Of a stretch of DNA of 64,000 nt, positions 40,369 to 64,000 are shown in pieces (positions within the stretch are counted from its first letter, which is position 1; the number at the start of each line of letters is the position of its first letter). Below the pieces are notes generated by a model. The model was not told where the DNA came from. It worked only from the letters and a program-made list of their open reading frames with translations, and did not search any database. The stretch lies in contig NZ_CP114902.1 of NCBI RefSeq assembly GCF_027497235.1, forward strand, positions 3,361,501 through 3,425,500, written 5' to 3'. A program made the translations under genes and the position numbers. This stretch comes from Micromonospora sp. WMMD1128 (lineage in GTDB: Bacteria; Actinomycetota; Actinomycetes; Mycobacteriales; Micromonosporaceae).

Positions 40369-40378
<10 letters not shown>
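40288..40378. repeat. Family 2 repeat: 91-bp imperfect hairpin at the end of the biosynthetic cluster
   Basis: Exact 12-bp ends GGTTGCTTGATC and GATCAAGCAACC. The adjoining 24 nt on each side also pair imperfectly (GACTCCAGGTCGCCGAAGTG against its mate). It resembles the copies at 15424-15544. The right arm contains the TGA stop of the terminal NRPS gene, so it may also act as the cluster terminator. Confidence 0.75.
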
Positions 40379-45875
<5,497 letters not shown>

Positions 45876-45879
<4 letters not shown>

Positions 45880-48800
45880 GAGTGGGTGTCCTCTTCCGCC
45901 GCGAGCAGCGCGGCGACCTCGGTGTCGGAGAGCCCGTCGAGTTCGGCGGCGATCAGCGCTTCGATCTGGGCGGCGAGGTTCGCCACCACGGGGCTGCCGA
46001 ACAGCGCCCGCATGGGCAGCTCGACGTCCACCTCGGCCCGGATCCGGGCCATCGCCCGCATGCCGCGCAGCGAGTTGCCGCCGAGGGCGAAGAAGTCGTC
46101 GAGCGCGCCGACCTTCTCCACCTGGAGGATGTCCGCGTACACCTCGGCGACCAGGGCCTCGGCCTCGGTGCGCGGCGCGACGTAGCTGTCCCGCGTCGAC
46201 TCGCCGGCCGCCGGGGCGGGCAGCGCGGCCCGGTCCAGCTTGCCGTTGGGGGTCAGCGGCAGCGCGTCGAGGCGGACCAGGGCGGCCGGCACCAGGTGCG
46301 CCGGCAGTTCCCGGGCCAGCTCGGCGCGGACCGAGTCCTCCCGGGCCGGCCCGACGACGTACCCGACGAGCGTCGGCTCGCCGCCGTCGGCGCGGACCGC
46401 CGCGGCGGCGGCCCGCACGTCCGGGTGGGCGAGCAGCGCGGCCTCGACCTCGCCCAGCTCGATCCGCATGCCGCGCACCTTGACCTGCTCGTCGCGGCGG
46501 CCCAGGTAGTCGAGCGTGCCGTCGGGACGCCGGCGGGCCAGGTCGCCGGTGGCGTACATCCGGGCGCCGGGCGGGCCGTACGGGCAGGGCAGGAACCGCC
46601 CGGCGGTCAGGCCGGGCCGGTCGTGGTAGCCGCGGGCGAGCTGAACGCCGGTGACGTACAGCTCGCCGACCACGCCCGGCGGCACCGGCTGGAGGGCGCC
46701 GTCGAGCAGCAGCGCGCCGGTGTTCGGCGCGGGCGTGCCGATCGGCACCGGCCCCGGGGGCAGCGGCGCGCCGGGGGCGATCCGGGCCGTGACGCAGCCG
46801 ACGGTGGCCTCGGTCGGGCCGTACTCGTTGGTCACCGCCACCTCGGGGTGCGCGGCCCGCCAGCCGGCGAGCTGCTCGCCGGTCAGCGCCTCGCCGCCGA
46901 TCACCAGGTCGGCGGTGGGTGACAGGTCGGCGTCGAGCAGCGGCAGGTGGCTCGGGGTGACCTTGAGGAAGGACGGCCGGCCGCCGGCCCGGGCGTCCGG
47001 CGAGTCGATCGCGGCCAGCCGCACCGTGCCGCCGGCGGTGAGCGTGCCGAGCAGGCCGGTGACGGTGAGGTCGAACGACACCGGCGAGTGCAGCAGCGCC
47101 ACCCCGGCCAGGCCCGGGTAGGCCGCCCGGGCCCAGGCCAGGTAGGCGGTCACCGCGCGGTGCTCCACCACCACGCCCTTGGGACGGCCGGTCGAGCCGG
47201 AGGTGTGCAGCACGTACGCCGGGTGCTCCGGGCGCAGCGGGGCGACCCGGTCGGCGTCGGTGAGGTCGTCGTCGGGCTGGTCCGCGCCGACCTCACCGTC
47301 GAGCACCAGCGCGTCGCCGGACGCCAGCGCGGCGGTGTCCGGCATGGCCACCACGAGCGTCGGGGTGGCGTCCGCCAGCAGGTAGGAGATCCGCGCGGCC
47401 GGGTAGGCGGGGTCCACCGGCACGTACGCGGCGCCGGACTTCAGCACCGCGAGCAGCGCCACCACCAGCTCGCAGGAGCGGGGCAGGACCAGCGCGACCC
47501 GGGTCTCCGGGCCGGCACCGCGGGCCACCAGCAGCCGGGCCAGCCGGTTCGCGGCGGTGTCCAGCTCGGCGTAGCTGAGCGTCGCCCCGTCGCAGACCAG
47601 CGCCGGGGCGTCCGGGGTGGCAGCGACCTGCCGCCGCACCTCGTCGACCACGGTGGTCACCGGCGTGTCCCGCGCGTCGCCGGTCGAGGCGTCGAGCGCC
47701 CGGTCCCGCTCGTCGTCGGTGAGCAGCGGCAGCGCGCCGACCGTCCGGTCCGGCCCGGCCACCGCGGCGTCGAGCAGCCGCACGTAGCGTCGCGCCACCG
47801 TCTCCGCGCTCGCCCGGTCGAACAGCGCGGTCCGGTAGACCAGGCGGCACTCGCCGGCGGTGATGTCGAAGGCCAGGTCGTCCTTGGTGGTGCCCAGCTC
47901 CGCCGGGTCGAGGCCGGAGTCCGGGATCCAGTTCAGCGCGGTCTGGAAGATCGGCTGCACCGACGGGTCCCGCTGCGGGGCCACCGCCTCGACGATCTTC
48001 TGGAACGGGGTGCCGCCGTGGTCCATGGCGTCGAGCAGGCCGTTGCGGACCCGGCCGAGCAGGTCGGCGAAGGTCGGGTCGCCGGAGACGTCGCAGCGCA
48101 GCGCCACCGGGTTGACGAACATGCCGATCAGCGGCGCCAGCTCGGGGTTGTCGCGGCCCGCGGTGGAGACGCCGACCACCACGTCCGTGTCGCCGGAGAT
48201 CCGGGACAGCAGCGCCGCGAAACCCGCCAGCAGCACCATGTACGGCGTGGCCTGCGCGCCGACCGCCAGCGCGCCGACCCGGTCGAGCAGCCCGTCGGGC
48301 AGCGCGAAGCGCACCTCGTCGCCGGCGAACCCGAGCTGGGCCGGGCGGGGCCGGTCCAGCGGCAGTCCGGTGACCGGTGGCGCGCCGGCCAGGTGACCGG
48401 TCCAGAACGCGAGTTGCCGGTCCAGTTCGTCGCCGGCGAGCTGCTGGCGCTGCCACACCGCGAAGTCGGCGTACTGGATGGGCAGTTCCGGCACGGCGGG
48501 CCCGGCCGCGCTGAACGCGGCCAGCTCGGCGTGGAACAGCACCGCCGAGTGGCTGTCGAAGACGGCGTGGTGCACCACGAAGAGCAACCGCCGGGTGTCG
48601 CCGAGGTCGACCAGGCGGGCACGCCACAGCGGCGGCGCGTCAAGCGGGATCGGGGTGCGGGCCAGCTCGGTCCGGAGCCGCTCGAAGGCGGCCAGCCGAT
48701 CGCCGGCGGGCAGGTGGCTCAGGTCGGTGGTGGGCAGCGTGAGCGGCTCGTGGGCGCGTACCACCTGCACCAGCGCGCCGTCGTCGACCCGCAGGTGGGT

Positions 48801-48983
48801 GCGGAGCGCCTCGTGCCGGGCCACCACCCGGTCCAGCGCAGCGACGGCCGCCGCGGCGTCCGTCCCGGCCGGGACGGTCCACGGGACGGAGATGTTGAAC
48901 ACCGGCGAACCCGCGTCGAGCTGGTTGGCCATCCACACCCGTTCCTGGGCGTACGAGGCCGGGAACGTCCACTCCTGGCTCAT
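45876..48983 (-). CDS. NRPS module C-A(Asn)-T
   Basis: 1035 aa. C domain (about 5-435) with HHAVFDS, the last Gly of HHxxxDG being Ser. A domain (about 455-935) with [12 protein letters not shown] and SFDLTVTG; specificity residues read DLTKVGEVGK, an asparagine code. T domain has LGGNSL (Ser about 970). It ends with an acidic helical tail that may dock to the next protein. ATG 48983 overlaps the MbtH stop (ATGA), and the TGA overlaps the ATG of the terminal NRPS. Adjacent oxygenase suggests a hydroxylated Asn residue. Confidence 0.94.
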
Positions 48984-49168
48984 GAGAGCCCCTCGCGCAC
49001 CGAGCGTGGGCGCATGTCGGTCCAGACCTCGTCGACGTGGGCCAGGCACTCGTCGCGGCTGCCGGCGAAGCCGGTGTCGTGCCAGCCGGCGGGCAGGTCC
49101 CGGTCGGCCGACCAGATCGAGTACTGCTCCTCGTCGTTGCGGACGACCAGAAATCGGGGTTCGGCCAT
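48980..49168 (-). CDS. MbtH-like protein
   Basis: 62 aa, the usual size. [44 protein letters not shown] carries the conserved SxWP-type and [16 protein letters not shown] blocks. MbtH proteins bind and activate A domains. Overlaps the next NRPS gene by 4 bp and follows the oxygenase gene by 1 bp. Confidence 0.96.
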
Positions 49169-49169
49169 G

Positions 49170-50123
49170 TCAGTTCGCTCCAGCGGTGTCGGGGGTGTAC
49201 GCCTCGGCCATCGCCACGGCGATCTTTCGCGGGCCGGTGAACGGCTCCCGGCCGTGCGCGGCGGTCATGTTGTCGACCACGAGCACGTCGTCGCGCTGGT
49301 AGTCGAAGCGGACCGTGGCCGCCCGGTAGGCGGCACGCAGGTGGTCCATGACGTCGGCGGGGATCTCGCCGCCGTCGCCGTAGTAGGTGTTCGACGGCAG
49401 CCCGTCGGCGCCGAACATGGCCAGCAGGCCCTCCTGGTAGTCCGCCGGCAGCGTGCTGAGGTGGAAGAACGTGGCGTGGTTGAACCAGCGCGGGGTGTCC
49501 GACCCGGGCCGGTGGTGCACCACGTCGCGTACCGCGCGGGTCCGCAGGCCGTCCGCGCCGACCCACTCCACGGTGATGCCGTTCGCCGCCGCGTACGCCT
49601 CGACGTCGGTGCGGCTCTCGGTGTTGAACACCTCCTGCCAGCGGGTGCCGAAGTCGCCGTGGAAGTTGCGGACCAGCATCCAGCGACGCCTGACGAACTC
49701 CTCCCGCACCGCGGGGTCGATCAGCTCGTACACCCGGCGCACGTCGGCGAGCGGGGTGGCGCCGCGCGTCTGCGGCGGGGTGATGCAGTAGAAGAACAGC
49801 GTCAGCGGCCAGCGCGCCTGGTAGGAGTTCTCGTTGTGCAGGAAGATCTCCTCGTCCGGCGGGTAGTCGGTCGAGGTGTAGACCCGTCCGGAGATGGAGT
49901 GCCGGGGCGAGGAACGCTCGGTGTAGGTCAACGGCTCGCCGGCAAGCGCGCGCACGGCGGCGTCGAAGCCGTCCACCCCGCCGACGTCGAACCCGCGGAA
50001 CAGCAGCCCGCCGTGGGCGACGAGGGTGTCCCGCAGCTCGGCGCGGCGGGCCGCGATGAGGTCGGTGAGCGCCCGACCGTCGTTCGCCACGACCACCGGG
50101 AGCGTGGCGGTTGTCTCGCTCAT
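49170..50123 (-). CDS. TauD/SyrP-like Fe(II)/2-oxoglutarate oxygenase
   Basis: 317 aa. The iron triad is H96-x-E98 in FLHNENSYQ and H290 in MTAAHGREPF, with R299 (GPRK) for 2-oxoglutarate. HxE instead of HxD, together with TPLADVRRVYELI, is typical of amino-acid hydroxylases in NRPS clusters (SyrP, AsnO, VioC types). Lies directly before MbtH and the Asn module, so beta-hydroxylation of Asn, free or carrier-bound, is the best guess. ATG 50123. Confidence 0.9.
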   Translation of the reverse strand: MSETTATLPVVVANDGRALTDLIAARRAELRDTLVAHGGLLFRGFDVGGVDGFDAAVRALAGEPLTYTERSSPRHSISGRVYTSTDYPPDEEIFLHNENSYQARWPLTLFFYCITPPQTRGATPLADVRRVYELIDPAVREEFVRRRWMLVRNFHGDFGTRWQEVFNTESRTDVEAYAAANGITVEWVGADGLRTRAVRDVVHHRPGSDTPRWFNHATFFHLSTLPADYQEGLLAMFGADGLPSNTYYGDGGEIPADVMDHLRAAYRAATVRFDYQRDDVLVVDNMTAAHGREPFTGPRKIAVAMAEAYTPDTAGAN

Positions 50124-50150: not shown

Positions 50151-53100
50151 TCAGCCGCGGGGTAGCCGCGGGATGGCCGGGATCGCCGCCGGGGCGGCCG
50201 GTGGTTCGGCGGTCGCCTCGGCGCGCAACTCCTCGATCCGGGCGGCCAGGCCGGCCACGGTCGGGGTCTCGAAGAGGCTGCGCATCGGCAGCCGCACCCC
50301 GGTCGCCTTGCGCATCGCGGCGATGAGCTGCACGGCCACGAGCGAGTTGCCGCCGAGGGCGAAGAAGTCGTCGTCCACGCCGACGTCGGTGACGCCGAGG
50401 CCGTCGCGCCACACCTGGGCGATGGTGCGCTCCAGGTCGGTGCCGGGCGCGGCCGAGCCACCGGTGACGGCCGACGCGCCGGCCGGGGCGTCGGTCGCCC
50501 CGGCCAGGCTGTCCGTGGTGACCCGGGCGGCCCGGCGCCGGATGTCGGCCACGGCGCGGGTGGCGATCACCACCTGCGCGCCGAGGCCGGCGCCGAGGCT
50601 GCGGCGGAACGCCTCCGCGCCGTCGACCGGCCGGATGTCCTCGGTGGCCGGGGCCGGCTCGTCGGTCGCCGGGGTCTCGGCCAGCGTGCCGGCGACCGCG
50701 CCCTGGTCCACCCGGCGCAGCACGAAGTCGCTGATCGCGACGAGCTCCCGGCCGTGCGGGTCGCGCAGCGACAGGTCGGCGGCGACCACCTCGTCGGTGG
50801 CGGCGGACCGGTGCCGCAGGTGACTGTGGAACGTCTCCGGCAGCGTCCCGCGCACCACGATCCGGCCGTACGACAGCGGCAGGTAGGTGCCGGCGCCCTG
50901 ACCGCGGCCGAACGCGGTGGCCACGTCGAGCAGCGCCGGGTGCAGCCCCCAGGCGGGCAGGTCGTCGCGCGCCGCGGCGGGCGCCTGCACCCGGGCCAGC
51001 TCCTCCCCCTCGCCCAGGTGGTGTTCGGCGAGCGCGGCCCAGCGCGGTCCGAACGTGAGCATGCTGGAACGACCGCGCCCGAACGAGGCGTCGTCGTCGA
51101 CCCGCCGCCCGGTCACGGCGGACGCGGCGGGCGGCGGCACGGCCTCGGTGGTCCAGCCGGCCGTGCCCCGCACATGCGTGCGCGACCGGCCGGCGGCGAG
51201 GCTGGCCACGGTGAACTCCGTCCCGTCCTCGGCCGGGGCCAGCTCGACCCGGTACTGCGCGACGGCGCCGTCCGGGACGCCGAACGGCTCCAGGAACACC
51301 ACGTCGCGCAGCTCCACCGCGGCGTCCGGCGCCGGCGCGGGCAGCGCGGCGACCACGGCGGCGCGCACCGACTCCAGGTGGGCGGTGCCCGGCACCACCG
51401 GCACGCCGCCGATCCGGTGCTCGTCGAGCACCCAGTGGGTCTCCGCCGAGACCAGGCCGTGCAGCACGGCGCCGTCCGGACCGGCGACCATGGTGGTCAG
51501 CACCGGGTGGACGACCGCGCTGGTCACGGTGTCCCGCCCGGCGGCCCGGAAGGCGGCCGGCGCGTCGGTCTCCACCGCCATGCCGACCTCCGCCCAGCCG
51601 CCCCAGTTCTGCGCCACCACCGGCGCGCGGAAACCGGCGCCGGAGCGCGCGAAGGCGTCCAGCACGTTGTTCGCGGCGCAGTAGTCGACCTGACCGAACC
51701 CGCCGATCACCGCCGTGACCGACGAACAGAGCACCACGAAGTCCAGCGGCAGGTCACCGAAGACCCGGGCCAGGGCGAGCGTGCCGGCGAGCTTCGGGGC
51801 GAGCACCCGCTCCGCCTCGGCCCGCTCCTTCACCTCGGCCATGCCGCCGCCGGGCAGGCCGGCGGCGTGCACGATGCCGTCCAACCCGCCGAAGCGGTGT
51901 TCCGCCTCGGCGCGGGCCCGGCGCAGGTCCTCCGGGTCGGTGACGTCGGCGGCGAGCACCAGCACCTCGGCGCCGGCGGCCTCCATCCGGCGGATCGCCG
52001 CGATGGCCCGGCCGGCCCGGTCGGCGCCACCGTGCACCGCCAGGTGCGCGTCCCAGTCGTCCCGCTCCGGCAGCCCGGAGCGGGCCAGCAGCACCAGCTT
52101 GGCGCGGGCCCGGACCGCGAAGTCCTCGGCCAGGGTGACGCCGATGCCGCCGAGACCGCCGGTGATCAGATAGCGGCCCTCCTCGCGCAGCACGCCCGGC
52201 TCGTCCTCGGGCCCCACGGTCACCTGCTCGTAGCCGCCCACCCAACGCCGGTCGCGGCGCAACGCCACCTCCGGGTGCTCCGGGTCGACCGGGCTGCGCA
52301 ACTCCACCACGACGGCGGCCACCCCGCGCGCGGCCGGGTCGGCGTCGAGCAGCCGGACGGTGAGGCCGGGCAGCTCGACCGGGAGGACCCGGGCCAGCCC
52401 GGTGAGCGTGGCGTGCTCGGGGCGGACCACGTCGTCGCCGCGCACGTCGCCGATGCCGGCGGTGACCAGATCGAGGCGGACACCCGCCTCGTCGGCGGTC
52501 AGGCCGGCGCCGGCGAGCGCCTGCACCAGGTGCAGCGCGCCGAAGAAGCCACGGTCCTGGGCGGCCCAGGCGGCGGTCACGTCGGTGCCGGCCGGCTCGC
52601 CGTCGAACGCGAACGCGTGCACGATCCGGCGGGGCAGGTCCGCGCCGAGCGCGGCGACGAGCGCGTCGGCGTCGGACCGGGAACCGGGGCGCAGCCGGTA
52701 GCCGCTCGCGGTGACGGTGAACGCGCCGCCGGCGCGTACCTCCACCGGGTCGTCGCCGGCGGCCCGCAACGCGGCGACGAGCGCCTCGCCGCGCGGACCG
52801 TCGGCAAGCACCAGGCAGCGGCCCAGCGGCTCGACCGTGCGGGCCGGCGCGACCTGCCGCCACACCGGCACGGCGAACCACTCCGGCAGCGGCCGGGGAC
52901 CGGTCTCCGCCGGGGCCGCGGCCGTCTCCTCCACCGGGTCCGGCTCGACCCAGTAGCGGCGTCGCTCGAACGGGTACGTGGGCAGCGGCACCCGCCGCGC
53001 GTCGGGGTCGGCGGAGAGGTTCACCGCCGTGCCGGCGCACCAGAGCGCGCCGGCCGTGCCGAGCAGCGTGGCCAGGTCACCCGTCGACTCGCCGGGCCCG

Positions 53101-55595
53101 GGCAGGCTGCCCAGCGGGGTGAGCGCCCGCTGCGCCGCGCCCGCCCTGGCGACCTGCATCCGGGCCAGGTTGGCCAGCTGCCGGCCCGGGCCGCACTCGA
53201 CGAGCGCCCAGGTGCCCTCGGCGAGCAGGGTGGCCACGCACGCGCCGAAGCGGACCGGCCGGCGCAGGTGCGCGGCCCAGTACGCCGGGTCGGTGGCCTG
53301 CGCGTCGGTGATCCAGGCGCCTGTCACGTTGGACACGAACGGCACCGCCGGCGGGCGCAGCGGCACGGTCGCCATCAGCGCGGTGAACTCGTCGAGGATC
53401 GGGTCCATCATCGGCGAGTGGAACGCGTGCGAGGTGCGCAGCAGCTTGGCCTTGTGCTTCCCGCCGAGGCTCTCCGCGAACGCCTCGACGAGCGCGGTCT
53501 CGCCGGCCACCACGCAGGTGCCGGGGCCGTTCACGGTCGCCACCGACAGGCCCGCGGGCAGCAGCTCGGCCACCGCCGACTCGTCCAGCGTGACGGCGAG
53601 CATCGACCCGGCCGGCAGGGCGTGCATGAGCCGGCCCCGGGCGGCCACCACCCGCAGCGCGTCCGGCAGGGCGATCACCCCGGCGAGCGTCGCGGCCACG
53701 TACTCGCCGATCGAGTGGCCGATCATCGCGGCCGGGGTGACGCCGGCGGCCCGCCACGCGGCGGCGAGCGCGTACTCGACGGTGAACAGGGCGGGCTGGG
53801 TCCAGCGGGTCTCGGTGAGCAGCGCCGCCGCGTCCGGGTCGCGGCCGAGGATCAGGTCCCGGACGTCCCGGCCCAGCTCGGGGCGGAGCAGCTCGGCGCA
53901 CTCGTCCACGGCGGCGGCGTACGCCGGGTCCTCGGCGTACAGCTCGGCGCCCATCCCGGCGTACTGCGAGCCCTGGCCGCTGAACAGGAACCCCACCCGG
54001 GGTGCGGCGTCGGCGTCGCCCCGGTGCGTCCGGCGCCGCTCGCGCAGCGCGGCGGCGGCGTCCTGCGGGTCGCCGGCGACCACTGTCGCGCGGTGGGCGT
54101 ACGCCTGACGGCCGACGCGCAGCGTGTGCGCGACGTCGGCGAGCGACCCGTCGCTGTCGCCGGCCAGGTGGTCGGCGAGCCGGCGCACGGCCTCGTCCAG
54201 CGCGGTGGGGGTCTTCGCCGACACCTGGAGCAGGTGCGCCGGGCGGACCCGCCGTTCGGCCCGGTACGCGGCCGGCGCCTCCTGGAGGACCACGTGGGCG
54301 TTGGTGCCGCCGATGCCGAACGAGCTGACCCCGGCGCGGCGCGGTTCGCCGTCGGTGTCCCATTTGGTGAGCGTGTTCGCCACGTAGAACGGGGTGTCGG
54401 CGAAGTCGATGGCCGGGTTCGGCGTCTCGTAGTTGATGGTCGGGGGGATCAGCCCGTGTTCCATCGCGAGCACCGTCTTGATCACGCTGACGATCCCGGA
54501 GGGCTGGCTGAGGTGGCCGATGTTCGACTTCACCGAGCCGATGCCGCACCAGCCCCGGTCGTCGGTGTCCCGGGCGTAGACGGCGGAGAGCGCGGCGATC
54601 TCGATCGGGTCGCCGAGCGCGGTGCCGGTGCCGTGCGCCTCGACGTAGCTGATGCTGCGCGGGTCGATCCCGGCCAGCCCGACGGCCTGGGCGACCGCCT
54701 CGGTCTGCCCCTCGACGCTCGGCGCGGTGAAGCCGACCTTCCCGGCGCCGTCGTTGTTGATCGCGTTGCCGAGCACCACCGCGCGGATGGTGTCGCCGTC
54801 GGCGATCGCGTCGGAGAGTCGCTTGAGCAGGGTGACGCCGACGCCGCTGCCCCACACCGTGCCGTTGGCGTCGGCGTCGAACGGCCGGCACCGCCCGTCC
54901 GGCGAGGTGAAGCCGTCCATGCCGAGGTAGCCCACGTGCGGCAGCTCGATGTTGACGCCGCCGGCCAGGGCCATGTCGCACTCGCCGTTGCGCAGCGCCT
55001 CGCAGGCGAGGTGGAACGCGACCAGCGAGGTGGAGCAGGCGGTGTGCACGGTGAGGCTGGGGCCGCGCAGGTCCAGCCGGTAGGAGACGTTCGTGGCCAC
55101 GTAGTTCGGCGAGGTGCCGGTGGCGATCGAGACCAGGCCGTGCGGGTTGCCGCCGACCCGCTTGTTGCGCAGCACGTGGCGGTGCAGGTAGGTGTTGCCG
55201 CCGGCCCCGGCGTAGACCCCCACCGCGCCGTCGTAGCGACCCGGGTCGTAACCGGCGTCCTGCAACGCGGTGTAACAGGTCTCCAGGAACAGCCGGTGCT
55301 GCGGGTCGGTGACCTCCGTCTCGCGCGCGGTCATCCCGAACAGGCCGGCGTCGAACTCGTCGTAGCCGTCGACGAGCGGGGCGCGGTTGACCCAGCCCGG
55401 GTCGTCGACCTCGTCCGGGCGGGCGCCCCGGGCGAGTTGCTCCTCGCGGGTCAGCTCGGTGGTCGACTCCACGCCGTCGACCAGGTTGCGCCAGAACTCG
55501 TCGACGTCGGCCGCGCCGGGCAGGCGGGCCGCCAATCCGACGATGGCGATGGGTTCGATGCCGTCGTCGGCGGCGGCGGGAAAGTCGTTATGCAT
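50151..55595 (-). CDS. Type I PKS module KS-AT-KR-DH-T
   Basis: 1814 aa. KS (about 14-440): TACSTS with Cys near 185, EAHGTGT and KSNIGHL. AT (about 535-850): GHSIGEY and HAFH, malonyl-CoA type. A structural region (about 900-1130) leads to KR (about 1140-1330) with GGLGGIG, SSV and YCAAN, so active. DH (about 1385-1650) has HRIGGVPVVP and HPALLD. T domain has LGGNSL (Ser about 1750). KR precedes DH, the reverse of the usual order. ATG 55595 with GAAGGA upstream. Should add one malonyl unit and leave an alpha,beta-enoyl group. Confidence 0.93.
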   Translation of the reverse strand: MHNDFPAAADDGIEPIAIVGLAARLPGAADVDEFWRNLVDGVESTTELTREEQLARGARPDEVDDPGWVNRAPLVDGYDEFDAGLFGMTARETEVTDPQHRLFLETCYTALQDAGYDPGRYDGAVGVYAGAGGNTYLHRHVLRNKRVGGNPHGLVSIATGTSPNYVATNVSYRLDLRGPSLTVHTACSTSLVAFHLACEALRNGECDMALAGGVNIELPHVGYLGMDGFTSPDGRCRPFDADANGTVWGSGVGVTLLKRLSDAIADGDTIRAVVLGNAINNDGAGKVGFTAPSVEGQTEAVAQAVGLAGIDPRSISYVEAHGTGTALGDPIEIAALSAVYARDTDDRGWCGIGSVKSNIGHLSQPSGIVSVIKTVLAMEHGLIPPTINYETPNPAIDFADTPFYVANTLTKWDTDGEPRRAGVSSFGIGGTNAHVVLQEAPAAYRAERRVRPAHLLQVSAKTPTALDEAVRRLADHLAGDSDGSLADVAHTLRVGRQAYAHRATVVAGDPQDAAAALRERRRTHRGDADAAPRVGFLFSGQGSQYAGMGAELYAEDPAYAAAVDECAELLRPELGRDVRDLILGRDPDAAALLTETRWTQPALFTVEYALAAAWRAAGVTPAAMIGHSIGEYVAATLAGVIALPDALRVVAARGRLMHALPAGSMLAVTLDESAVAELLPAGLSVATVNGPGTCVVAGETALVEAFAESLGGKHKAKLLRTSHAFHSPMMDPILDEFTALMATVPLRPPAVPFVSNVTGAWITDAQATDPAYWAAHLRRPVRFGACVATLLAEGTWALVECGPGRQLANLARMQVARAGAAQRALTPLGSLPGPGESTGDLATLLGTAGALWCAGTAVNLSADPDARRVPLPTYPFERRRYWVEPDPVEETAAAPAETGPRPLPEWFAVPVWRQVAPARTVEPLGRCLVLADGPRGEALVAALRAAGDDPVEVRAGGAFTVTASGYRLRPGSRSDADALVAALGADLPRRIVHAFAFDGEPAGTDVTAAWAAQDRGFFGALHLVQALAGAGLTADEAGVRLDLVTAGIGDVRGDDVVRPEHATLTGLARVLPVELPGLTVRLLDADPAARGVAAVVVELRSPVDPEHPEVALRRDRRWVGGYEQVTVGPEDEPGVLREEGRYLITGGLGGIGVTLAEDFAVRARAKLVLLARSGLPERDDWDAHLAVHGGADRAGRAIAAIRRMEAAGAEVLVLAADVTDPEDLRRARAEAEHRFGGLDGIVHAAGLPGGGMAEVKERAEAERVLAPKLAGTLALARVFGDLPLDFVVLCSSVTAVIGGFGQVDYCAANNVLDAFARSGAGFRAPVVAQNWGGWAEVGMAVETDAPAAFRAAGRDTVTSAVVHPVLTTMVAGPDGAVLHGLVSAETHWVLDEHRIGGVPVVPGTAHLESVRAAVVAALPAPAPDAAVELRDVVFLEPFGVPDGAVAQYRVELAPAEDGTEFTVASLAAGRSRTHVRGTAGWTTEAVPPPAASAVTGRRVDDDASFGRGRSSMLTFGPRWAALAEHHLGEGEELARVQAPAAARDDLPAWGLHPALLDVATAFGRGQGAGTYLPLSYGRIVVRGTLPETFHSHLRHRSAATDEVVAADLSLRDPHGRELVAISDFVLRRVDQGAVAGTLAETPATDEPAPATEDIRPVDGAEAFRRSLGAGLGAQVVIATRAVADIRRRAARVTTDSLAGATDAPAGASAVTGGSAAPGTDLERTIAQVWRDGLGVTDVGVDDDFFALGGNSLVAVQLIAAMRKATGVRLPMRSLFETPTVAGLAARIEELRAEATAEPPAAPAAIPAIPRLPRG

Positions 55596-55627
55596 GGGAG
55601 GTCCTTCACTCGCACGGGGTTGCGGCA

Positions 55628-58600
55628 TCACGGCTGCTGGGGTCGGCGGGGCGGCGGGGTACGGCGGGCGCGGCCCCGCCGGGCGGCGGCGCGCAACGCG
55701 GCGCGGGCCAGCTCCGGCCGGTCGGCGGCGCCGTCGAGGCTGGCGGCGAGCGCCCGCACCGTCGGGTGGCGGAACAGGTCGAGCATGGTGATCGAGCGGC
55801 CGGTGGCCTCGACGAGCCGGGCGTGCACCGCGGCGAGCGCCATCGAGTGGCCGCCGATGTCGAAGAAGTTGTCCGCGACGCCGACGGTGTCCCGGCCGAG
55901 GACGTCCCGCCAGATGCCGGCGATCAGCGCCTCGGTGCCGGTGAGCGTGTCCGGGCCGGCCGGCAGCGACGCCCGGGCCGGCTCGGCGGCGACGGTCATC
56001 GCGCCGAGCGCCGCCACCCGCACCGCCGGGCGGGGCAGCTCGGGCGCCACCTCGCCGGCCGGCGCGTCCGGGTCGGCGGCGAGCGCGCCGACCAGGGCGA
56101 CCAGGTCGGCCAGGAGCGCGGCGATCCGGTCGGCGTCGAACAGGTCCGGGTTGTACACCACCTCGACGCCGGCCCGCCCGTCCCGGTGCACCACGTAGAC
56201 GGTCAGGTCGAACGGCGACCCGGGTTTCGGCACCGGCACCGGCTCGGCGGTCAGGCCGGGCAGCGCCAGCCGGGGCGGGACGAAGTTGAGCACGTTGAAC
56301 AGCACCTGCACCAGCGGCGCGCGGGAGGTGTCCCGGCCGACGCCGAGCGCCTCGACGATCCGTTCCAGCGGCGCGCCCGGATGGTCGGTGACCGCGCGCA
56401 GCTCGGCGGCGCACCGGTCGACCCGCTCGGCGAAGCTGCCGCCGGCACGCACCCGCACCGGCACGGTGTCGATGAAGAAGCCGATCACCTCGTCGAACGC
56501 GGCCAGCCTCCGGTCGGCGACGACGGCGCCGAGCAGGTGGTCGTCGCCGCCGGTGAGCCGGCGCAGCAGCTCACCGAAGCCGGCCAGCAGCACCGCCGCG
56601 ACCGTGGCGCCGCGCCTTGCGGCCAGGTCGCGGACCGCCCGGTCGGCCGCGGCGTCGAGCCGGACCGCGGCCTCCGCGCCGGCGTACGTCTGCACGGCCG
56701 GGCGGGGCCGGTCGCGGGGCAGCTCCAGCACGGTCGGTGCGCCGGCCAGGTGCCCGGTCCACCAGGCCAGGTCCGCCTCGCCGCGACGCCTGTCGCGTTC
56801 CGCGCGCCACACCGCGTAGTCGGCGTACGTGGCGGGCAGCGGCGGGCGGCCCGGCGCCGGCCCACCGACCGCCCGGGCGTACGCGGTGGCCAGCTCGTCG
56901 TAGAGCACCGCCTCGGACCAGCCGTCGAAGACCGCGTGGTGCACGGTGATCGCGAGCACGTGTTCGGCGGCGGCGAGCCGGTAGACGGTGACCTGCCAGG
57001 CCGGTCCGGTGGCCAGGTCGAACCCGTGCCCGGCGCCGGCCGCGAGCATGCCGGCCAGTTCGGTGTCCGGGTCGGCGGCGGCGGTCAGGTCGACCACCGG
57101 CACCGCCACGTCTGTCGGTTCCTCCCGGACCGCGTACGGCACGCCGCCGGTCTGCGGGATGCGCCAGCGCAGCACGTCGTGCCGCTCGGCGACGGCGCGC
57201 AGCGCGACGCCGAGCGCGGCCACGTCGAGCGGCCCGCGCAGCCGGTGGGCGACCGCGATGTTGTAGGGCGCGCTGGACGCGGTGAGCTGGTCGGTGAACC
57301 ACAGCCGCCGCTGCGGCGGGGACAGCGTGGGCGGGTTGCCGGTGGTCAGCCCGTCGCCGTCGGCCGGGTCGGCGGCGCGGACCCGGTCCACGAGCGCGGC
57401 GAACGTGCGGTCGGTGAACAGCACCCGGGTGTCGACCTGCCGGCCCAGCTCGGCGCGGAGCGCGGCGACCAGCCGCATCGCGGCGATCGAGTTGCCACCG
57501 GCGGCGAGGAAGTCGCTGTCCGGGGCGGGTGCGGCGCCGAGCAGCCGGGTCCACAGCCGCCGGACCGCGTCGCGCACCGGGTCGTCGCCGTCGGGCGTGT
57601 CGTCCACCGTGGCCGCGGTGGCGGCCAGCGCGCGCAGCGCCGGCCGGTCCAGCTTGCCGGTGGTCGGGCTCACCGGCAACGCCGCCAGCCGCACCGTCCG
57701 GGCCGGCAGCATCGCGGCGGTCAGCCGCTGCCGCGCGTACGCCCGCAGCGTGTCGTGGTCCGGGGCGCCGGCCGGGGTGAGGAACGCGACGAGCTCGGTG
57801 CCGGCCGGGCCGGGCACCGCCTCCACCACGGCCCGCTCGACGCCGGGGTGGGCGGCCAGCGCCGCCTCCACCTCGCCGGGTTCGATCCGCTGGCCGCGCA
57901 CCTTGACCTGCCGGTCGGCCCGGCCGAGATAGACGAGCCGGCCGTCGGGCGCCTGCCGGACCAGGTCACCGGTGCGGTAGAGCCGTTCGCCCGGCGCGTC
58001 GCCGAACGGGTCCGGCACGAACCGCTCGGCGGTCAGGCCGGGCCGGTCGAGATAGCCGTCGGCCAGGCCCGGGCCGCCGATCAGCAGCTCACCGGTCTCC
58101 CCGGACGGCACCGGCCGCAGGTCGGCGTCGACCACGTACGCGCGGTGGTTGGGCAGCGGCCGGCCGATCGGCACCGGATCGGCGTCGGCCGGGGTGAGGT
58201 CGCCGCTGACCGCCAGCACGGTGGTCTCGGTCGGGCCGTAGGCGTTGACGAACCGCCGGCCCGGCGCCCAGCGGGCGACCAGCTCGGCCGGGACCGCCTC
58301 GCCGCCGCAGAGCAGCACCCGCCACGACGGCGTGGTGGCCGGGTCGAGCAGCGCGAGCATGGTGGGGGTGACGAACCCCCAGGTCACGTCGTGCGCGGCG
58401 AGGAACCGGGCCAGCCGCGCCGGGTCGGCCCGGTCGTCGGCGCCGAGCAGCTGCACCGCGCCGCCGAGGGTCAGCGGCACGAACAGGTCCATGGTGGCCG
58501 CGTCGAAGCCGAGCGAGGCGATGCCGAGGCTGCGCATCGAGGCGTCGGCGCCGGTCAGCGCGGACACCCCGGTGACGAACTCGACCACGTTGCGGTGGGT

Positions 58601-59128
58601 GGTGAGCACGCCCTTGGGGCGGCCGGTGGAGCCGGAGGTGAACAGCACGTACGCCGGGTCGCCGGGGCGGGCCGGGCACGGCGCCAGCGGCGCGGGGCCG
58701 GTCCGGTCGAGCGTCCGCACGCCCGGTTCGTCGCCGAACTCGGCCGCCGCCGCGTCGCCGGCCACCACCCGCACCCCGGCGTCCCGGGCGATCTCGCGCA
58801 GCCGGGTCCGCGGGCCGCCCGGCTCCAGTGGCACGTACGCGGCGCCGGCCAGCAGCACGCCGACCACGGTGACCACCAGGTCCGGGGTACGCGCGCCGCA
58901 GACGCCGACCCGGTCGCCCCGGCCGACGCCGTGTGCGCGCAGCGCGGCGGCGACCCCGGCGGCCCGCTCGACGAGTTCCCGGTAGGTGAGCCGGTGGTCC
59001 CACTGGCGCACCGCCACCGCGTCCGGCGCGAGGGCGGCCCGGGCGGTGATCAGGTCGGCGAGGGTCGCGTCCGGCCAGGGCAGGTCGTCCCCGATGACGG
59101 CGGCGGTGGCGGGCAGGACGTCGGTCAC
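55628..59128 (-). CDS. NRPS A-T-C-T (starter module plus C-T lacking its own A)
   Basis: 1166 aa. A domain (about 20-515) with [12 protein letters not shown] and [10 protein letters not shown]; specificity residues read roughly DAMFLGAVLK, a hydrophobic pocket I cannot assign. T1 has AGGNSI (Ser about 545). C domain (about 625-1050) has HHAVFDG. T2 has IGGHSM (Ser about 1094), then a basic Arg/Pro-rich C-terminus. No second A domain, so T2 needs loading in trans or by another route. GTG 59128 overlaps the stop of the thioesterase-LanB gene. Confidence 0.93.
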
Positions 59129-62100
59129 CGGTGTGCTCCCAGGTGCTCGGCCGGGTCGGTGATGTGCAGGCGCAGCTCGCTGAAGTAGCGACGGCCGGCG
59201 CCGTCGGGCACCCAGGCGTGCTCCGGGCCGGGCAGCATCTCGCTGACCGTGAGCGGGACGCCGTCGCCCCCGGTGCCGCGGGCGGCCCGCACCAGGGCGC
59301 AGAGCATGGTGGCGAACCCCGGCGCGGCCAGGTCCACGAAGCAGGGTTTGGTCTCGGTGCCGAGCTTGACGTAGACCCGTTCGGGCAGGCCGAGCCGGCG
59401 GCGCCAGGCCCGGACGGCGAGGAACCGGTTCCGCTCGCCGGTGACGGTGGCCAGGCCACTCTCGCCGACCGTGGTGCGCCAGGTCTGCCGGGCCACCACG
59501 AGGCGGTCCACCGTGATCCGGGGCGTGTGGGGCGCGGCGGCGACCAGCTTGAAGCCGTCCACCGCGTGCGCGCTGAGCACCGGGGCGAAGATCTCGGCGA
59601 GCGGCCAGCGCTGCCCGTCGGAGGCGGTGGCGACCAGGTCGCCGTCGACCGCGTCCACGGTGAGGTCCACCGTGGGCAGCACCCGGGCCGGGTCCGCGCC
59701 CGGCGCGTCCTGGAAGGCCAGTTGCCGGTCGGTCGGGCCGGCCAGCGACTCGGCGGTGCGGCTGGTGCGGCGCGGCCAGTCGGCCGGGAAGAGCAGCCGG
59801 ACCCGCCGTTCGCCCAGGTCCGCGGCGAGCGCGTCACGCAACCGTTCGACGTCCGGGTGCGACGGGGTGAAGACCGCGCAGTCGAACGAGGACCAGGCGG
59901 CGTGCAGCTCACCGAGCACCACGGTGTAGTCGCCGCGACCAAGCGCCGCCGCGTCGGTGGCGCAGATCTGCAGGTCGGGGCTGTGCATCGCGGCGTTGGA
60001 CCAGGTCGGCCGGGAGTCGGGGAAGACCACGTCGATCCGGTCGGCCAGGTCGGCCGCGCGCACCCGGATCTCGGTCGTCCCGGCGGGGAGCGTGTCCAGG
60101 CCGAACAGCCCGGCCCAGCGGGCGGCGAAGTCGGCCGCGACGGCGTCCACCGGCCGTTCGCCGTCGCCCCAGAACATGCCCTGGGCGAGGAACCACAGGT
60201 CGGCCAGCGCCACCGGCCCGCCGGACTCGGCCCGCAACTCGTCGTGCAGGCCGCGCAGGACCTCCAGGTACGCGTCGGCGAGCGCACCGGCGAGCCAGCG
60301 GGCGGCGCGCAGCAGCACGTCGAGCGGGGCGGCCAGCTCGGCCAGCAGCGGGCTGCCGAAGACCACGTCCAGGTCCCGGGCGGTGTCCTCGTAGCAGATG
60401 GTGCGGCCGGCGTACATCTGGCCGGGACGGCGCGCGGCCGGCACGCCGGCCAGCTCGGTGAACGTGGCGTCGAGGTGGTCCAGCGCGGCGCGCAGCGGCT
60501 CCGGATCGTCGGCCGCCGCGGCCACCGCGTCGCGGGCGGCCCGCAGCCGGTCGAGGCCGGACCGGGCGGCGGCGCGGGCCGGTTCGTCGCCGATCGCGGC
60601 GATCCGCTCGGCCAGCACCCGTTCGGCGTCCGGGCTTACCGGCAGCGCCGCGTCCCAGGTGAGCAGCTCCCGCTCCACCAGCCGGTCGAGCAGCGTGTAG
60701 CCGTCCTCGGGCCGGCGCAGCCCGATCGCCGGGTCGGCGACCAGGTCGACGGCGGCACGGCGGCCGTCGGCGGCACGCAGCAACGCGGCCTCGACCGGGG
60801 TCACGGTCAGCGGCGGACGGCCGGGCCGGAGCACGGTCCGGTCCCGGACCGCCAGGTGGGGCCGCAGCATCGGCGGCCACCAGCGGCGGACCGCCACATC
60901 CACGCCGATCCGGTCGGCGTACGCGGCCAGGGCCCAGGACTCGAACCACACCCAGCGCCGTCGGGTGAGCCGGTCGCCGGGGTCGACCCGGGCGACCTCG
61001 GTCCGGTCGGGGTCGAGGGTGACCCAGCAGCTGGGGCCGAAGAAGCCGATCGTCTCGTTCTTACCGCAGTACCGCTGCCAGTACTTGAGCAGCGCCCGCT
61101 CCCGGTCCCGCCGCCGCACGTTGCGGCGCGTGTCGGCACCGCCGCGCGCCAGCCCGTCCAGCGCGATCAGGGCGCCCCGGTTCTGCCAGGTCACCGCCGC
61201 ACGCACCAGCGGATCGGCGGCCAGCGCGTTGAGCCGCTCGGCGCCGGCGCGGACCGCCTCGTCGAACTCCTTGTCGAACCGGTCCGCGCCGGCGCCGGTG
61301 TCGAGCAGCTCGTCGGCGGCGGCGGCGGCCCGGGGCGCGGTCAGCAGCTCCAGCCCGTCGGCGGGGAAGCCGGTGGTCCGCAGCATCGCGTCGCGCCACA
61401 CCGACCACCCGGTGTCGCCGAGGGGAACCCGGTGCGCACCGCAGGCGGTCCCGCGGCCGGCGGCGCGCACCGGGTCCGGACCCGCGACCGGTGCACCGGC
61501 GCGGGGGTCGGAGGTGCCGGGCACGGCGGTCAGGTCGGCCCGGATCAGCGCGGCCAGCTCGGCGAGCCGGTCGTGCAGGAAGAAGTGCCCGCCGGGCAGG
61601 TCGTGCAGGGTGAACCCGGCCGCGGTGTGCTCGGCCCAGGCGGCGTTCTGCTCCCGGGTGACCGCCCGGTCCCGGTCGCCGGCGAACGCGACGATCGGCA
61701 CCGGCAGCGGCTCACCGGGGACGTAGCGATAGTCGTCGACCCGGCCGAAGTCGGCCCGCAGCAGCGGCAGCAGCAGGTCCACCAGCTCCGGGTGGTCGAG
61801 CAGCTCGGCGGAGAGCCCGCCACCGTCGCGCAGGCGGTGCAGCAGCTCGTCGTCGTCGGCGCGGGACAGCCCGTCGAAGAGGCCCGGCCCGGCGACGTGC
61901 GGGGCGCGGGCACCGCCGACGTAGAGCCGCAGCGGCAGCGGGCGACCGGTACGGCGCAGTTCGCGGACCACCTCGAAGCCGAGCCGGCCGCCCATCGAGT
62001 GGCCGTAGATCGCGTACGGGCGGTCGGCGCGGGCGGCGATGGCGTCGGCCACCTCGGCGACGGTGAAGCGCGGATCCTCCATGATCCGGTTCTCCCGGCC

Positions 62101-62243
62101 GGGTAGCTGCACCGGCAGCACCTCGACGCCCGGACCGAACGCGGCCGGCCAGTGCCGGAACGCGCTGGCGCCCGCGCCCGCGTAGGGCAGGCAGAACAGC
62201 CGTACCGGCGCCTCGGGTCGGCTGCCGGCGGAGACGAACCAGT

Positions 62244-62247
<4 letters not shown>
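59125..62247 (-). CDS. Type II thioesterase fused to a LanB-like (lantibiotic dehydratase N-terminal) region
   Basis: 1040 aa. Residues 10-245 are a type II thioesterase: [29 protein letters not shown] (S84) and GGHFFLHDR. After an Ala/Pro linker, residues about 300-1035 match the lantibiotic dehydratase N-terminal domain: [82 protein letters not shown]. In LanB and PEARL enzymes this region transfers aminoacyl groups from tRNA. No LanB elimination domain follows. GTG 62247 overlaps the upstream PKS stop, so it is one continuous reading frame within the operon. Confidence 0.85.

Positions 62248-64000
<1,753 letters not shown>

Follow-up and report, generated by a model that had tools for sequence, protein, structure and literature searches.

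Lantibiotic dehydratases (LanB proteins) are encoded not only in pathways to ribosomally synthesized and post-translationally modified peptides (RiPPs); about two thousand nonribosomal peptide synthetase (NRPS)/polyketide synthase (PKS) clusters also encode a 'lantibiotic dehydratase' (PMC11212132). The closest described system is the threopeptin (sna) cluster of Stackebrandtia nassauensis, where leaving out the gene showed in 2024 that SnaE, a 'lantibiotic dehydratase' resembling the peptide aminoacyl-tRNA ligases (PEARLs), is required to add Thr to the NRPS/PKS product. The same paper derived the use of aminoacyl-tRNA and ATP by SnaE from homology, ascribed the supply of its free carboxylate to a ureido-forming condensation (C) domain, and mentioned thioesterase (TE) fusions (PMC11212132). 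Here a gene encoding such a TE-LanB fusion is described from Micromonospora sp. WMMD1128 (assembly GCF_027497235.1). It occupies 59125..62247 on the reverse strand of the window, the 64,000-nt stretch of NZ_CP114902.1 from 3,361,501 to 3,425,500; unless another locus is named, coordinates are those of the window, and all window features described below lie on the reverse strand. On sequence grounds its LanB region is probably, with odds of roughly seven in ten, a PEARL-like ligase that forms amides as SnaE does, a figure that covers the ligase core and excludes any hand-over from the TE. The original prediction from this stretch regarded tRNA-dependent aminoacylation as new chemistry for an assembly line; with SnaE in print since 2024 that novelty is lost (PMC11212132). 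The general idea has been known since then, TE fusions included, and the variant part is a TE fusion without ureido chain reversal.

Other described proteins resemble parts of the fusion. The RiPP PEARLs TglB, BhaB7/BhaBCTrp and AmmB have in common with the LanB region the fold family, the ATP site and two residues at the CCA end of the tRNA; they act on ribosomal scaffold peptides, whereas the present protein belongs to an NRPS/PKS line and carries a TE (PMC11962472, PMC11117183 and PMC12945691). Split LanBs such as TbtB and GodF lack the PEARL Asp and second Arg (PMC11117183) and pair with an elimination partner, and a split LanB of the WMMD1128 genome shows both traits. The N-terminal 242 residues resemble the type II TEs RifR, RedJ and BorB; the solved structures of these show stand-alone TE proteins, in contrast to the LanB-fused TE described here.

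The TE-LanB fusion gene

The fusion gene is an uninterrupted frame for 1040 aa with a GTG start and a TGA stop. It overlaps each of its assembly-line neighbors by 4 bp, as predicted: the upstream gene for an adenylation (A)-thiolation (T)-ketosynthase (KS) protein at 62244-62247, and the downstream A-T-C-T gene at 59125-59128. The AlphaFold2 model of the product has a mean predicted local distance difference test score (pLDDT) of 87.7 and a predicted TM-score (pTM) of 0.72. Residues 1-242 (61522..62247) form a type II TE domain with the motifs GHSMG (82-86), GDRD (190-193) and GGHFFL (219-224), and PF00975 matches residues 16-237 at 125.1 bits (cut-off 26.4 bits). The domain shows the Ser-Asp-His motifs and the alpha/beta hydrolase fold and is of the RifR/RedJ type. 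A linker, residues 243-269 (61441..61521), is predicted to be disordered, with pLDDT below 50 throughout, and leads into the LanB region, residues 270-1040 (59128..61440). The predicted Lant_dehydr_N identity of this region, for which a profile search had been proposed, was confirmed: PF04738 scores 97.7 bits over the whole fusion protein (cut-off 28 bits), with its best stretch at residues 344-873, and a six-frame search placed a second stretch of the gene at profile positions 572-632.

A protein search with the LanB half returned 914 relatives. Among the best 120 of these, the present protein included, 109 have both Pfam domains, 8 have PF04738 alone and 3 have PF00975 alone. The whole fusion protein was also searched against an even sample of 298 genomes of the order, with two candidates scored per genome; 102 genomes matched at E 1e-30 or better, many of the matches covering the TE half only. 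With an alignment of the LanB region alone, matches at E 1e-40 or better came from 97 of the 250 genomes searched in the family, spanning 28 of 44 genera. In a single pairwise comparison (NG86) with the relative in genome G091, dN/dS was 0.063/0.189 (about 0.33) for the TE, 0.084/0.329 (about 0.25) for the LanB and, relaxed, 0.140/0.119 for the 30-codon linker, so that both halves look constrained and show signs of purifying selection. Because of this constraint and the 109 of 120 listed relatives with both domains, a chance or misassembled fusion is very unlikely; the fusion is real, conserved and probably catalytic.

The residues named for TglB are Arg10, Asp542 (called Glu542 in two papers), Glu564, Glu801 and Arg803, and those named for BhaB7 are Arg34, Tyr205, Arg208, Asp558, Glu575, His577, Arg715, Phe755, Lys763, Glu813 and Arg815, the tRNA 3'-CCA of BhaB7 being contacted by Arg197, Gln201, Tyr205, Arg208 and Arg429 (PMC12945691, PMC11962472 and PMC11117183). 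By motif and spacing, the equivalents in the LanB region are R290, Y389, R392, D758, E780, H782, R920, Y959, K967, E1024 and R1026. They were followed in a 38-row alignment of NRPS/PKS and related loci that includes SnaE and keeps 38 of 40 profile hits, two partial pieces from G033 being left out. All eleven positions are invariant there except Y959 (F in 30 rows, Y in 8) and K967 (K in 32, R in 6), and the signature residues are likewise invariant in all 27 rows of a further alignment, A1. The residues kept in 38/38 rows include D758, E1024 and R1026, equivalent to the TglB ATP-site residues Asp542, Glu801 and Arg803, as well as Y389 and R392, equivalent to the CCA contacts Tyr205 and Arg208 of BhaB7. 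R920 and Y959 align, in a TbtB profile alignment, to Arg746 and Phe786 of the TbtB PDB chain, which are taken to be Arg743 and Phe783 of TbtB, the spacing being 40 residues in both. Searched against the PDB, the LanB alignment profile matched TbtB and, weakly, PqqD twice; a phmmer search of the PDB with the region itself found no LanB. The fold family is that of TbtB and NisB.

The 120 entries listed, out of 1517, from a protein search with the LanB of G205 were mostly metagenomic and did not include any named as SnaE. These LanB-like proteins (P0122-P0241) are about 700-920 aa long, and the few that are named come from Pyrinomonadaceae, Ktedonobacteraceae and Herpetosiphonaceae.

Carboxylate supply and the proposed reaction

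The fusion resembles SnaE in being a PEARL-like LanB in an NRPS-PKS operon and in sharing the listed signature residues, except that Y959 is F in SnaE; the sna cluster also has a TE gene. It differs in that SnaE is stand-alone and falls, in the 38-row tree, in a 6-row clade (100/99), whereas the present LanB is fused to the TE and belongs to a separate 19-row clade (100/99). The sna locus was recognized as G337 by gene order and motif (A-T-C-A-T with EHHLVHDG, KS-acyltransferase (AT)-T, TE, LanB). Its NRPS is thus of the type A-T-C(urea)-A-T; the ureido motif is missing from all three C domains of the present cluster. EHHxxHDG was detected in 3 of 19 loci (SNA_G337, G228 and G298), most compared loci being covered with about 8-20 kb of flank. 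It is absent from all 14 joined loci, the present one included, in which ureido C domains beyond the fetched flanks would be missed. The C domain of the present A-T-C-T protein groups in a 16-row clade (support 0.99) from loci with this LanB type and does not fall with the three ureido C domains. The absence of the motif from the extended region and this placement led to the rejection, for this cluster, of chain reversal by the ureido route known from sna. As the cluster has no ureido-forming C domain, another source of the free carboxylate is needed, and hydrolysis by the TE is perhaps the simplest.

Other arrangements of LanB genes were seen in passing. The proteins at L119 9241-16614 and L120 3788-11254 are single chains of the order A-T-C(urea)-A-T-LanB, joining a ureido NRPS and a PEARL-like domain. 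On a plasmid of Streptomyces sp. NBC_01216 (L062 10556-22848) a LanB-like gene lies between methylaspartate mutase genes and genes for a free acyl carrier protein (ACP), an AMP-binding protein, an ATP-grasp protein and a condensation domain, and L060 has a similar C/ACP/ATP-grasp/AMP-binding set about 15 kb from its LanB.

The 19 rows of the LanB clade represent 16 loci, 10 of which have a TE-LanB fusion (the present locus, G091, G328, G162, G185, G468, G309, G352, G302 and G315), so that the search of genome neighborhoods suggested with the original prediction did recover the same fusion repeatedly. In 3 others (G377, G101 and G073) the TE is encoded by its own gene immediately upstream, and in G358, which was left out of the count of clean fusions, it is spread over two frames. 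An A-T-C-T type NRPS accompanies the LanB in 11 of the 16 loci (the present locus, G091, G328, G185, G101, G073, G358, G363, G315, G468 and G384; the first T went undetected in G101), G162 being left undecided. Upstream of the LanB, 9 of these 11 have both A and KS, G185 has KS only, and G363 has neither within the fetched flank. In G302, G352, G309 and G377 the NRPS is A-T-C-A-T, and the upstream flank fetched, roughly 8 kb, contains no A-T-KS. Because A-T-KS goes with A-T-C-T and is missing beside A-T-C-A-T in most compared loci, the A-T-KS protein may take the place of the second A domain.

In the reaction proposed by analogy with the described PEARLs, the LanB would use ATP, bound in an ATP-grasp-like site, to phosphorylate a free carboxylate on an intermediate of the assembly line, and the amine of an aminoacyl-tRNA would attack the activated carboxylate to give an amide bond. 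Hydrolysis of the tRNA would then leave the molecule one amino acid longer, outside thioester chemistry. The preferred version has the fused TE hydrolyze a carrier-bound intermediate to provide the acceptor, so that release and tRNA-dependent extension would take place on one protein. It can tentatively be extended, at odds clearly on the lower side, to a release-and-extend catalyst: the free acid made by the TE would be re-activated with ATP by the fused PEARL and joined to aminoacyl-tRNA, perhaps twice where LanBs stand in tandem, and the NRPS/PKS chain would be terminated or branched by amino acids taken from translation, without ureido reversal.

Several observations weigh against this proposal. 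The residue equivalences were drawn from motif, spacing, the TbtB profile alignment and published text, without a direct alignment to TglB or BhaB7, and the TM-scores of the whole AlphaFold2 model to LanB chains are moderate, at 0.44-0.50. The original prediction would have fallen with the loss of a significant Lant_dehydr_N match or of all tRNA- and substrate-contacting residues; the match is significant and the ATP residues are kept, and the tRNA residues are retained in part. Of the five BhaB7 CCA contacts, Tyr205 and Arg208 are matched, Arg429 has no mapped equivalent, and Arg197 and Gln201 are unmatched, D381 and A385 standing at that spacing with Arg380 and Arg382 flanking 381. Glu564 of TglB is described as non-essential in PMC11117183. 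A six-frame scan of the extended region around the gene (103.5 kb) gave no EHHxxHDG motif, and no TE was seen within the fetched flank of two clade loci, G363 and G384. Finally, editing is the best-known role of type II TEs, and the fusion may serve editing only.

This last point leads to the strongest competing explanation, which shares the ligase core with the preferred one and comes fairly near to an even chance: a PEARL-like ligase whose TE merely clears misloaded carriers, the acceptor being carrier-bound or the finished product and the fusion serving co-expression or editing. The RifR/RedJ type of the TE fits such a role, as do the separate TE and LanB genes of sna and the LanBs of G228 and G298, which are fused to a carrier-bearing NRPS instead. 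The position of the TE, fused to or directly upstream of the LanB in 13 of 16 clade loci from several genera, nevertheless suggests a closer link between the two.

It is improbable that the LanB, like a split LanB, glutamylates a Ser/Thr-type hydroxyl from Glu-tRNA and so sets up dehydration of the NRPS/PKS product. The Pfam family and the fold common to TbtB and NisB would allow it, and the A domain of the protein at 40369-45879 is presumably Ser-like by motif, a lead only. Residues R290, Y389, R392, K396 and R920, which are also present in this genome's split LanB, could be read in the same sense; that protein further keeps an aromatic residue at 959, K967 and E1024. However, E780, H782 and R1026 are replaced in it by Q, F and A, respectively, and D758 by Q or F, depending on the aligner. 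As far as alignment can tell, the fusion LanB thus keeps the residues that separate PEARLs from glutamylating LanBs, D758 and R1026 among them, and its same-genome counterpart has lost four, in agreement with how PMC11117183 distinguishes split LanBs from PEARLs. The precedent, SnaE, makes an amide (PMC11212132). The cluster also lacks an elimination domain: as predicted, none is in view, the sole PF14028 match of the genome lying about 480 kb from the window beside the split LanB in a thiopeptide-like cluster, and no LanC is in view either, the nearest LANC_like match being more than 200 kb away. That distant cluster (L057 5928-14813) is thiopeptide- or goadsporin-like, with the split LanB, Lant_dehydr_C, a nitroreductase-type gene, YcaO and an M50-like gene.

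A non-catalytic scaffold or docking unit is hardly credible, given signature residues invariant in 38/38 rows and in 27/27 rows of A1 and the signs of purifying selection.

Tandem LanBs and the surrounding assembly line

A second LanB (LanB2), 51-58% identical over the stretch seen, lies directly downstream of the first (LanB1) in 20 of 23 TE-LanB loci (L007-L029), as counted from fetched flanks and not from the order-wide search with its two candidates per genome. The loci without it are the present one, G220 (L020) and G185 (L028). The last 30 nt of the present gene, from residue 1032 to the stop (59125..59154), apparently come from a deleted LanB2. They are identical to the LanB2 tails of two close relatives, L130 and L131, at 30/30 positions in both and to the LanB1 tails at 18/30 and 20/30, whereas upstream of SELRL the gene matches LanB1 at 80/87 and 79/87 nt and LanB2 at 63/87 in both. 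The same direction is seen over the last 30 nt in four more relatives that have both genes, the matches of 30 to LanB2 and to LanB1 being 28 and 20 in L132, 26 and 19 in L133, 25 and 16 in L134, and 21 and 17 in L136. L135 (G220) has no LanB2 for a tail comparison, and the gene of G220 ends in a LanB2-like tail, SELRLQITDP. The simplest reading of these sequences is that LanB1 and LanB2 recombined in frame, at the SELRLHIT codons or close to them, with loss of LanB2; because the G220 tail is also LanB2-like, the loss may have happened twice. Relocation of LanB2 within the genome was rejected, because the only other PF04738 gene found is the split LanB whose neighbors are genes for Lant_dehydr_C, a nitroreductase-type protein and YcaO, and is therefore not LanB2.

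The upstream A-T-KS gene (62244..65735, of which 62244..64000 lies in the window) extends past the window end; the KS catalytic motifs are present, there is no AT, and no AT or ACP follows the KS. Downstream of the fusion, the A-T-C-T NRPS (55628..59128) has the non-ureido C motif VHHAVFDG. It is followed by a PKS module of the order KS-AT-ketoreductase (KR)-dehydratase (DH)-T (50151..55724, start codon not fixed), by a TauD/TfdA-type oxygenase (49170..50123; PF02668, 153.1 bits), by a C-A-T NRPS module (45876..49049) and a terminal C-A-T-TE-MFS module (40369..45879), in which the NRPS is fused to a predicted exporter of the major-facilitator type (MFS). The last is a single frame of 1836 aa, and a TE-MFS fusion is also found in G185. 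Its TE has Cys for the usual Ser (GHCGVG); TEs with Cys include ones that make beta-lactones or beta-lactams. The code of the C-A-T module, read by eye as DLTSVGEVGK, is presumably Asn/Asp-like, again a lead only. Its position beside the TauD-type oxygenase (45876-50123) points to a possibly hydroxylated Asn/Asp. No announcement of this Micromonospora cluster or its product was found in the open-access literature, to which the search was confined, subscription papers not being covered.

Among NRPS/PKS clusters with a 'lantibiotic dehydratase', a role has been worked out only for sna in the literature cited here. The clade of the present gene places its LanB in assembly lines without ureido chain reversal as carboxylate supply, which points to another feeding route, and the TE fusion suggests which. 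Strains with one LanB after recombinational deletion and strains with tandem LanBs form a natural experiment, in which a one-residue difference between their products is expected. Should release and extension indeed be joined on one protein, the loss of LanB2 by recombination would be nature's way of editing how long the product becomes. TE-PEARL fusions, if this role is confirmed, would provide a portable unit for off-loading, one that attaches amino acids delivered by tRNA to the products of assembly lines.
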